NCBI RefSeq assembly: GCF_000189635.1
Contig: NW_002476086.1
Location: 186,001-250,000, forward strand
DNA: 64,000 bases
Direction: 5' to 3'
DNA from: Tetrahymena thermophila SB210
Taxonomy: Eukaryota > Ciliophora > Oligohymenophorea > Hymenostomatida > Tetrahymenidae
A program made the translations under genes and the position numbers. Below, one piece after another: positions 4,608-16,129 of this stretch (its first letter is position 1; every line of letters begins with the position of its first letter). The notes beneath the pieces are model-generated. The model was not told the origin of the DNA, searched no databases, and saw only the letters and a list, made by a program, of their open reading frames with translations.

Positions 4608-4876
4608 TTGTTCTTTCCTTAATTTGCTTTTCTTTTATTGTATAAATTTCTTTTCGTTTTTATCCTTTATAATTAATTTTCATTGATTTTTTTAATTAAA
4701 TGATGAATTTCAATGCAATTTTTGTTTGATTGTTTATTCGTAAATATTTTTTCTTTCTTTTTCTCTTATCAATCAAATAATTTATTTCCTAACATAACCA
4801 TTTGCTTCTATACCAAGCTTATTTTTTATATGTATATATGTAAATAAATAAATGAAAGATTGTTGCGACAAAGGTA
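4608..4876. other. Putative promoter/5' leader of the minus-strand ATP6AP2-like gene
   Basis: Read on the minus strand, the bases just before the ATG at 4607 form an A-rich, purine-rich leader, as seen before other starts in this window. No other signal was recognised. Confidence 0.35.
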
Positions 4877-5026
4877 AGCGAGATATAAGAGGAAAAGTGA
4901 GGTCTGGAGCAATATTTTTTAGACTAGCTTTTTAAAACAAATTTATAACATTTGTTATAAATTTGTTTTAAAAAGCTAGTCTAAAAAATATTGCTCCAGA
5001 CCTCACTTTTCCTCTTATATAGCGAG
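4877..5026. mobile_element. 138-bp perfect foldback (MITE-like) element with 6-bp flanking direct repeats
   Basis: Bases 4883-4950 and 5953-shifted mate 4953-5020 are exact reverse complements: two 68-base arms separated by only two bases (4951-4952). Immediately outside the palindrome, 4877-4882 and 5021-5026 are the same six bases, agcgag, in direct orientation. This is what a target-site duplication looks like. The arms include GC-richer stretches (for example gaggtctggagcaat) unlike the surrounding spacer. There is no coding capacity, so it would be a non-autonomous element if mobile. Perfect arm identity suggests recent formation or insertion, or gene conversion. The superfamily is not assigned: six-base duplications do not fit mariner (TA) or hAT (8 bp). 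An assembly or amplification artefact is the main alternative explanation for the palindrome, but the flanking repeat argues against it. Confidence 0.7.
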
Positions 5027-5610
5027 CCCAAGCTTTCCTTTATAATCAGATTTATTTTTTATTTAATTTTTATTGTATTATCTTTGTTAATTTCTTTTAT
5101 TCAAATCTATTACTTTTCATTTGCTTATTAGCCTTATTTTATATCACCACTTTTCCCAAATGTTTATTTTTATTTGCTATTCCTCTTTTTTAATGTAATA
5201 TAAAAACTTATTTATTTATTTAAGATTGATTGATAGATAGATATTATTAAATGTATCTATTTTACTTTCATTTTTAAATATTTTATAGTTATCAAAAAGA
5301 GACAATAAATTAATTTCTATTACATTTTCTATTTTAATTTTATTATTATGTATTCACTTTAACATAATTCTAAGATATAAATTAATATTATTTTGGCTGG
5401 TTTTTAATTATATTCTCAAAGACTTTTAATTTAAATAAAAAGTTTTTAAAGATATTAATTTTTTTGGGGAGACAATTATTCAATATTAGCTTTTTCAATA
5501 TAACAACATTTTATTTATTTTGAATTTCAGTAATTTATTTATAATTCTTTCAATTCAAATTAATTTAATTTTTTCTTTTTCAAAAAAGAAAACAGAAGAT
5601 TTAATTCTTC
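5027..5610. other. Intergenic spacer with short tetranucleotide repeats
   Basis: AT-rich sequence with a short gatt/gata run near 5225-5245. The bases just before 5611 are A-rich and could be the leader of the next reading frame. Nothing else seen. Confidence 0.5.
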
Positions 5611-5901
5611 ATGTCTCCATTTCCATTTTAATATCAACAGATAAACTATTTCTAATCATATTAGTTTTTAATACAAACGATTTGTCATTTCTCAAATGAT
5701 AAATTTGTTGCTTATCGACTTCCAGCAGATATTTTTTACATTAGAACTTAGAAATAGAATTATTGTCTGATAATTAAAAATGATTTGGATGAGGGTTTTA
5801 GCGATGAGTCTTCTGGATACTTTGTAAGAGCTTATAAGTTTAAAAAAATGTCAAGTATAAATTTAGAGCATGAATTCTTGATTGTTTTGGTAAATTCATG
5901 A
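5611..5901 (+). CDS. Small hypothetical protein (96 residues in one frame; structure uncertain)
   Basis: With the ciliate code the ATG at 5611 opens a 96-codon frame ending in TGA at 5899-5901. The middle (around KFVAYRLPADIFY, then KNDLDEGFSDESSGYF) has balanced composition and glycine and acidic residues, unlike the surrounding spacer. A possible intron donor (gtaaat at 5890) just before the TGA could extend the protein into bases up to about 6025. The opposite strand of the same interval is also open and reads as a Lys/Asn/Gln-rich, glycine-free protein ending near 5610. I prefer the plus strand on composition, but the strand is not certain. No family recognised. Confidence 0.42.
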
Positions 5902-14045: not shown

Positions 14046-15152
14046 TCACTTTCTCTTAGAAGAAGATGTATATTCAAACTAGCTTTAATATTAATAATTA
14101 GATTATTAAACAACTGATGATTCTGGTTAGTTGTCAGAATTTTACTTTTCTTAGACTTTGGTAACTAAGAAGTATCCCATTAAAAGAGAAAGAACAAAAA
14201 TTATAGAAATATGAGGGGTGAAGATAGGAGCTAAAACATAAGAAGGTCCAGGGCATATGCCACCCAATCCCCATCCAATACCAAAAAGAATTGCACCTGC
14301 TATAAGCTTTAAATCAATTTTATTATTTTAGGGAACTTCAAAGACTTGAGAATAAACTGGTTTCTCTTATTATAAGATAAAGTGGAAGGCAAGGGCATTA
14401 GGTATTGCTGCTGCAGCCATCACAATAGCTAAAGAAGGGTCCCAGTTTTCTCCAATAGCTAGGAAACCAAGAACTTTTTCTCTTTTAATCATTCCTGAGA
14501 CTACTAAACCAGAAGCAAAAATGACTCCAGTTATAAAGGAAACAACTATTTCAGAGATATCAACATATTCATACTAGCGGTAAAGATAGAAAACATATCC
14601 TACAAAGAAAATGCAAAGAGCAGCTAACATGATTGGGACTAAAACATTATAGTCAATTTTGCTAACTACATTCAAGCCATCAGAGTCATCTAAGAAAGGG
14701 TGATAAAGTCTAAGAGAGGCAACACCAAATCCAAAAGCCATAAAGAAAAAAACGGCAACAAATGAACGAACAGAAAATCTAGGAAGACCACAGACACCAT
14801 GACCACTAGTACATCCGTTACCTAGTTTAGTACCAATACCAACAAGTAAACCGGCTAATGCGAATCCAAAAATGTCTAAGCTTGAAACTAATGCTTGAGG
14901 TGGTGAAAATATGTAAGTCTTGCCTTCATTTACAGGGTCGAACTTAAATATTAACCAAAACACGCATGATGTAATTGCCATTCCTGAAAGCAAAGATATC
15001 TTCCATTTAGATCCTTCATTTCCTATAATACCACTTAACAAACCACTCATTCCTGTAATTCTACCTTTCATATATAAGTGAAAAATAGTTGCAAGAGAAA
15101 TCAATAAACCTCCACCTAATGCTAGGTATAATTCATAAGGCTCTGCTCTCAT
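14046..15152 (-). CDS. YeeE/YedE-family (TsuA-like) sulfur-compound transporter
   Basis: An intronless frame of 368 residues from ATG at 15152 to TGA at 14046-14048. It is made of many hydrophobic helices in two similar halves. The first half carries [17 protein letters not shown] (about residue 110) and the second [16 protein letters not shown] (about residue 290). These are the two signature cysteine motifs of the YeeE/YedE family; in bacterial TsuA the conserved cysteines pass thiosulfate across the membrane. The tail after the last helix is Ser/Gln-rich and probably cytosolic. The sulfur substrate is inferred from the family. Lack of introns, while most neighbours have them, and a family best known from bacteria would fit an old transfer from bacteria, but composition and Gln codon use (TAA/TAG) are fully host-like. 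Confidence 0.92.
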
Positions 15153-16129
15153 TTTTACTTAACCTTTTATATTTTATTTTTTCAAAAACAATATCTTTTC
15201 AAATTAAACTATTTGCAAAAAATTTATATAAAATTTGCAATTACTTTCTAAGCTTATAAGAAAAATATTGATTGATTAATATACATAAATATATATATAT
15301 ACCTTTCTATTATTGGATGTATCTATTTATCAATATGTTAATTAATGTTTGATAATGCTTCAATTTCGCTGGATTCACAATTAAATTTTATTAATTTTTA
15401 TTTAAGTAATTATTCTCCCTCCATATATCTTATCTTACTGTTTTATAAATCATCTCTTCTGGAATTAATCTTCATACGCCTTAACTAATTGTTTTTATTT
15501 GTTTAATTGCTAACAATCTAATAATCTAGAAGTTTTTTCTTTATGTAAATAAATAATATCTTAATCTCATATTTTCTTCTTCTTATTTTTGCAAATTATT
15601 AAAATAAAAATTAACTACCTTATTTAATAATAATAGAATTTAATCTGTAAAATTATTAATCCATCCATAAAATACTTTTTAGTAAATTAAAGTAATATTT
15701 TTTATTTTAATATCAAAATCAATTAAAATAATTTTCCTTACTCGATTATTATTTTTTTTTTATTTATGATTATACTATGTAAAATTATATGGCATTAACT
15801 ATGTGAATAGGGTTAATTATGAAGATTACAATTGTTTTTTTGATATAGTTAACATATATTATGTTTTTTATATTGATTATAATTAAAAAAATATTATATT
15901 AAAGATATATTTCAAAATTGCTTGCTTACCAATAATTTAAAAACTACCCGTTTGATTTGATAAAATTAAATTAAAAATCAATGAAAAAAGCTATACTTTA
16001 TAAGCGTACGCTCAAATTATCATATTCAGCCAAAATATTATATTCAAATTTGAAGTAAAAGCTCATTAATTAAATTATTTGAAATCAAAAAATTCAACCT
16101 ACAAATTTATCTAATTGAATAAGATTGAA
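15153..16129. other. Divergent intergenic region
   Basis: Promoter region for the minus-strand transporter and the plus-strand coiled-coil gene. There is a short (at)n run near 15288-15300. No other feature recognised. Confidence 0.45.

Follow-up and report, generated by a model that had tools for sequence, protein, structure and literature searches.

A perfect foldback in the macronuclear genome of Tetrahymena thermophila as the probable scar of a programmed transposon deletion

The foldback and its family

The window, that is, the whole stretch of DNA that was analysed, comprises 64,000 nucleotides of the T. thermophila macronuclear genome (C363:186001-250000). The contig from which it is taken (C363, 312,867 bp) starts with CCCCAA repeats and ends with GGGGTT repeats, and is hence a telomere-capped chromosome. 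The T. thermophila telomerase RNA matches C67 at 159/159 bases, a result from one gene that a near-identical sister species could share. Within the window lies a foldback whose two arms are reverse complements of each other at 68/68 positions and are separated by a two-base TT centre, with AGCGAG standing in direct orientation on both sides (Table 1). Given the base composition of the window, the number of perfect 68-bp arm pairs expected in 64 kb is about 10^-28. The GC fraction around the foldback is 0.23, and a 328-aa open reading frame in genetic code 6 (4713-5699) spans it mechanically. The first-pass annotation had described the perfect 68-base arms, the two-base centre and the flanking AGCGAG, all of which were exact on re-check, and had placed them in a macronuclear chromosome, which agrees with the position of the foldback in the interior of a telomere-capped ciliate chromosome.

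Table 1. Features of the foldback, with positions counted from the first letter of the window.
Feature	Position	Strand	Evidence
Target-site duplication, left copy, AGCGAG	4877..4882	+	Exact 6-bp duplication in 9/13 foldbacks
Left arm, the 68 bp at the outer end of the transposon's terminal inverted repeat	4883..4950	+	Sharp outer edge; homology in 13 young half copies to about 65-70 bp
Conserved 25-bp tip ATATAAGAGGAAAAGTGAGGTCTGG	4883..4907	+	53 genomic occurrences against 0 for the reversed control
ATATA at the start of the tip ATATAAGAGGAAAAGTGAGGTCTGG, proposed core of a boundary signal	from 4883	+	Mirrored TATAT in 27/64 half copies
Foldback centre, proposed excision junction	4951..4952	.	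Centres vary among copies; subfamily arms conserved to about TTATAA
Right arm, opposite terminal inverted repeat, tip at 5020	4953..5020	-	Reverse-complement match
ATATA core in mirror position (plus-strand TATAT), whose end is 138 bp from the left tip	5016..5020	-	Spacing inside the 130-140 bp peak of half copies
Target-site duplication, right copy, AGCGAG	5021..5026	+	Matches the left copy

We searched the genome (101,022,631 bases in 445 contigs) for related sequences. The 150-bp stretch that includes the foldback and its flanking repeats gave at least 66 matches from at least 33 candidates. The 25-bp tip ATATAAGAGGAAAAGTGNGGTCTGG, with up to three mismatches allowed, occurs 53 times and its reversed control not once, and a looser 21-bp pattern with up to two mismatches occurs 96 times against 7 for its reversed control. 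No exact match to the tip was found in viral contigs. The family is dispersed over many contigs, and its terminal inverted repeats begin ATATAAGAGGAAAAGTG and have fixed outer ends, as in a DNA transposon. When both tips were required without mismatch, eight foldbacks matched; we examined 13, including ones with mismatches or gaps, on C363, C78, C219, C173, C115, C114, C195 (two), C382, C31, C176, C257 and C25. Ten copies with clear ends and no runs of N measure 134-142 bp. The foldbacks on C31 (132 bp) and C382 (201 bp) have runs of N inside, and the one on C257, whose right end is poorly defined, was left out of the length range. Ungapped arm identity, indels included, spans from 69/69 (C114) to 45/69 (second C195 copy), so that the foldbacks are not uniformly perfect.

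An exact 6-bp duplication flanks 9 of the 13 foldbacks (AGCGAG, TCTATT, CTTAAA, AATAAA twice, TATCCC, ATTTTA, TTTATT, and AATATC on C25). The duplications at C219 and at the second C195 copy have one mismatch, and no clear duplication was seen at C176 and C257 (2/13). The probability of nine or more exact duplications among 13 by chance, from base composition, is about 5e-24. The duplications share no common sequence, which indicates insertion with a 6-bp stagger, and their fixed length is again that of a DNA transposon. Furthermore, a scan of 266 kb for inverted repeats that stand 100-200 bp apart and are bordered by exact 6-bp duplications yielded six hits, all of this family. Our results show that a mobile element with terminal inverted repeats has been inserted many times with a 6-bp target duplication. 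This is what the first-pass annotation had proposed for the single copy that it saw, and the further copies that it suggested looking for, flanked by different 6-bp repeats, do exist. Among the loci examined no full-length copy of the element was found, and no transposase was detected by Pfam in 10 frames taken from three half-copy loci.

The runs of N in the C382 (L014 4749-4949) and C31 (L099) foldbacks indicate that the assembly failed to read through the palindromes, and the number of foldbacks may hence be underestimated. Since palindromes assemble poorly here, one could suppose that the foldback is itself a false palindrome from folded or mis-joined reads. We consider this very improbable: the 6-bp duplications are specific to each locus and yet agree on both sides at 9/13, the arms of one copy can bear variants that are absent from other foldbacks (ACACCC, for example, is in both arms of C173 and of C115), and the half copies with a mirrored TATA core, described below, would be left unexplained. 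Even less credible is a host origin that has nothing to do with transposition, such as chromosome breakage or the formation of an rDNA-type palindrome. In T. thermophila short inverted repeats do give rise to a large rDNA palindrome (PMC5182062), but the foldback is internal to a telomere-capped contig, belongs to a family found on many contigs and is flanked by 6-bp duplications.

Half copies and the mirrored TATA core

The majority of the copies examined are in a single-arm state: in 64 half copies one arm is followed by unrelated DNA. We aligned 13 young half copies, picked for their likeness, and took the fraction of the commonest base in bins of five columns. This fraction is 0.94-1.0 over positions 1-65, except for positions 26-35 (0.62-0.71), drops to 0.75 at positions 66-70 and is then at background. 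In the outer flank it stays at background (0.51-0.54) until the tip is reached. The arms of these 13 youngest half copies are about 57-70 bp long, with unrelated DNA beyond. In L022 and L024 about 15 further bases are common to both by eye, with two differences, which suggests that the element extends inward past the usual end point. Part of the homology edge could also be the inner end of the repeat itself, since the end points are tighter than published junction variation implies.

No convincing partner arm was found inside the half copies at the tips of L009-L040, foldbacks apart, where about half of the loci have 4-5 kb of inner sequence and the rest about 0.5 kb or less. The candidate partner arms in L012 and L020 are weak, each with two mismatches in the tip and one in the duplication, and we do not believe them. 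A pair on C91 (943786 plus and 957171 minus, 13.4 kb) was rejected as a full element on account of mismatches in the outer six bases.

The positions of TATAT on the far side of the arm were then counted in two sets of half copies. The first set (n=30) leaves out ten foldback loci (L009, L010, L011, L014, L017, L021, L041, L051, L053 and L054) and the minisatellite loci L028-L031 and L034 with the plus copy in L018, and keeps L040, which ends 52 bases in. The second (n=36), fetched later, is without L071 and with L066, and includes chance matches (reversed pattern 7 against 96). L039 lies outside the tip cut-off and was not counted. One of three tip matches on C13 was taken into the analysis. 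These three weak matches (C13:620343, 628433 and 636359) have identical letters and stand about 8 kb apart, which suggests a tandem duplication that is probably unrelated to the foldback family.

In the first set, TATAT ends 130-139 bp from the tip in 15 of 30 half copies, and the other 10-bp bins between 70 and 329 bp hold 0-4. The second set shows 12 of 36 at 130-139 bp, one of them L066, a diverged foldback, and 0-6 in the other bins. With L066 removed, TATAT is found at 132-142 bp in 9/35, against a background mean of 1.8 and a maximum of 6 over 224 windows; this last window was chosen after both sets had been seen, and the 130-139 bin was not. When all 1,024 pentamers were ranked in 241 windows over the 64 half copies, a set from which L040 was also dropped, TATAT at 130-140 bp came first (27/64, against a mean of 4.6 taken over all 241 windows, peak included) and ATATA at 134-144 bp second. 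TATAT is absent from 130-140 bp in the remaining 37/64. No comparable peak exists in the outer flank, where windows hold 0-3 loci each (18 tips from 15 loci, four of the tips coming from foldbacks). Hence the far side of the half-copy edge often bears an inverted TATA core at the distance of the second tip, in most cases with the remainder of the repeat absent. As in the TATA class of IES flanking sequences, the cores form an inverted pair at about equal distances from the junction, with a spacing of 138 bp at our locus, distances being counted from the proposed junction.

We also looked at the 6 bp that stand beside the mirrored TATAT. An exact duplication is present in only 3 of 28 cases (L013, L033 and L066), with a mean of 0.13 under random pairing, so that most of the half copies examined are not simple double-ended insertions. 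An exact downstream 6-mer without an ATATA end is found in L020, L035, L037, L042, L084 and L094, and A+T-rich DNA allows such matches. In L013 (4855, C135:18454) one arm is 98.5% like that of the window and the other end is very diverged (ATATATGG), with an exact CATTGA duplication at 138 bp; here two ends of different age apparently stand within one insertion.

Origin of the foldback

The first-pass annotation took the 138-bp foldback for a foldback or MITE-like element. The insertion with its 6-bp duplication stands, and the retention of the foldback as a whole element is probably wrong. In a rival account on these lines, an intact palindromic element of 134-142 bp transposes as such and is kept in the macronucleus, half copies being decayed copies that have lost one arm. 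It accounts for foldbacks that have both ends, a 6-bp duplication and a fairly constant length, and it can point to L013 and L033, where 6 bp match exactly at 138 bp, next to an ATATA end that has diverged, as would be expected of a second arm in decay. The centres speak against it. If a palindromic MITE were copied as a whole, its centre should be preserved, but the centres read TTATAACATTTGTTATAA in C363, TTATAACATTTTATTATA in C78 and TTATAAGTTATAA in C382 (the latter adjoining the run of N), and those of C363 and C382 differ although their arms match at 67/67 positions. The copies are therefore not alike over their whole length, contrary to what defines a palindromic MITE or foldback family. 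The young half copies, moreover, stop at about one point. Finally, loss of an arm would leave no mirrored TATA core, and predicts no TATAT at 130-140 bp in unrelated DNA, where the peak is found. Taken together, we regard an intact MITE as an unlikely origin.

Very probably, judging from the sequences compared here, the foldback is instead the scar left in the T. thermophila macronucleus by the programmed deletion, as an internal eliminated sequence (IES), of a germline transposon. The germline interior, the excision and the protein factors are the parts of this account that we infer. The best reading of the survival of the outermost 68 bp or so is that the tips carry a boundary signal. The junction sequence varies among copies without a fixed consensus, as do IES junctions of the Tpb2 type, the variation here being among copies and not among sibling cells.

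In the mechanism that we propose, the germline copy would be a longer transposon with AGCGAG on either side. During formation of a new macronucleus, the interior of this transposon would acquire heterochromatin marks and be removed through the Tpb2 pathway, which is known from published work. The tip would carry a flanking regulatory sequence with an ATATA core, one of the class that published work places about 65 bp from IES ends, and this would put each cut about 68 bp inward of its tip. End joining would then fuse the two leftover repeat ends into a palindrome, near-perfect if the insertion is young; the perfect arms at our locus would be young terminal inverted repeats that meet at the excision junction. 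A half scar would result when a single tip serves as a border and an unrelated ATATA fixes the opposite side; such a pairing might arise, to offer a conjecture, if the transposon landed, for instance, within an existing IES or next to one.

This suggests that transposon elements can carry the signal that sets the position of the cut. We put forward, as a possibility that falls somewhat short of probable, a wider version of this idea: the tips of the family bear the host's deletion-boundary signal, insertions bring their own excision borders, are cut about 68 bp inside their ends in the soma and can impose a border on a neighbouring deletion, and the TATA class, which comprises 2,700 IESs, descends from the family or is mimicked by it. 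How newly arrived transposons gain clean deletion borders is an open question in Tetrahymena, and the family suggests an answer for at least some of them, namely a signal at the outermost tip. It supplies concrete loci, a defined signal and a prediction that can be checked in existing germline data. It also calls for caution, as a short perfect palindrome in a macronuclear assembly may represent an excision junction and not a resident element.

Half copies on C6, C50, C92, C144, C193 and C433 have common sequence beyond the arm and fit less neatly with an excision scar.

In these six (C6, C193, C50, C92, C433 and C144; L018 5594 plus, L028, L029, L030, L031 and L034) a minisatellite with a 71-bp unit stands directly inside the arm, and the outer flanks are unlike one another at the tip. 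C144 and C193 have about 2-3 kb in common at about 97%, with Rpb2-like coding matches. The shared interiors were rejected as a transposon body, the Pfam hits being Rpb2 RNA-polymerase domains (and PP2C beside C433) and no transposase. Telomere repeats are absent at both ends of C6 and of C144, at the start of C193 and at the ends of C50 and C433; C92 terminates in GGGGTT repeats.

Known boundary systems and further observations

Retained transposon ends, inverted boundary repeats and a proposed transposon origin of boundary signals are already in print. Lin et al. 2019 (PMC6547420) report that inverted repeats flank T. thermophila IES boundaries at almost the same distance on either side, that the commonest group, with a TATA core, lies about 65 bp from both ends of its 2,700 IESs, and that boundaries become variable in vivo when flanking signals of the TACCNT and C-rich classes are lost. 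The cores described here are likewise ATATA and TATAT in mirrored orientation, and stand about 69 bp from the centre. That paper reports the motif class and speculates on transposable elements as a possible origin, whereas the core in our family stands at the extreme outer end of a transposon repeat that is bordered by a 6-bp target duplication.

Hamilton et al. 2016 (PMC5182062) describe about 12,000 IESs with variable junctions, 83.3% of junction variants lying within 20 bp of the parental junction. They also describe about 1 Mb of putative transposon sequence retained in the macronucleus, with a bias to transposon termini "in some instances", which a 2017 review restates. Our copies resemble these termini in being, on our reading, transposon ends left by incomplete removal through IES excision; what is described here in addition, for one family, is how much remains (about 68 bp at either end), the form of the junction and the mirrored signal.

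For Ltl1, which binds an A+T-rich flank, a DNA-binding fold like that of Tc3 is predicted, and it was proposed that IESs under one boundary regulator may derive from one transposon (PMC6698652). The A+T-rich flank and the proposed descent from one transposon are points of likeness to our family; the control region of the D IES, in contrast, sits 75 bp or more outside. In Blepharisma, also a genome-editing ciliate with transposon-derived sequence, the MITEs are by description germline elements (PMC9942856), whereas here the ends alone remain in the soma. The short terminal repeat of the exonic IESs excised by Tpb1/Tpb6 has CACTTT, which is also inside our tip on the other strand, but those IESs have TTAA direct repeats and precise excision (PMC5182062, PMC5666084). 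A piggyBac-type (TTAA) element or a Tpb1/6 IES was rejected, as the duplications of our family are varied 6-mers and not TTAA. Among the matches listed in the open-access literature, we did not find the tip of one family with 6-bp duplications coinciding with the TATA class and leaving a foldback and half scars; a search for the letters of the tip in literature text gave no Tetrahymena paper among the matches listed.

Three other observations concern single loci. The foldback on C114 (L041 239-377) is perfect and its arm holds the stretch GTGTGGTCTGGGGCAAT twice; 52 bases from this arm also stand at the extreme end of contig C116 (L040). Judging from the outer flanks, the copies in L018 and L028, and, by similarity, those in L019 and L011, are inserted at differing points of related tandem arrays with units of about 150-500 bp. 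Elsewhere in the window, a code-6 open reading frame on the minus strand (14046-15218) has DUF6691 and Sulf_transp domains by Pfam, and sulphur transport of the Sulf_transp/DUF6691 type is known mainly from bacteria.
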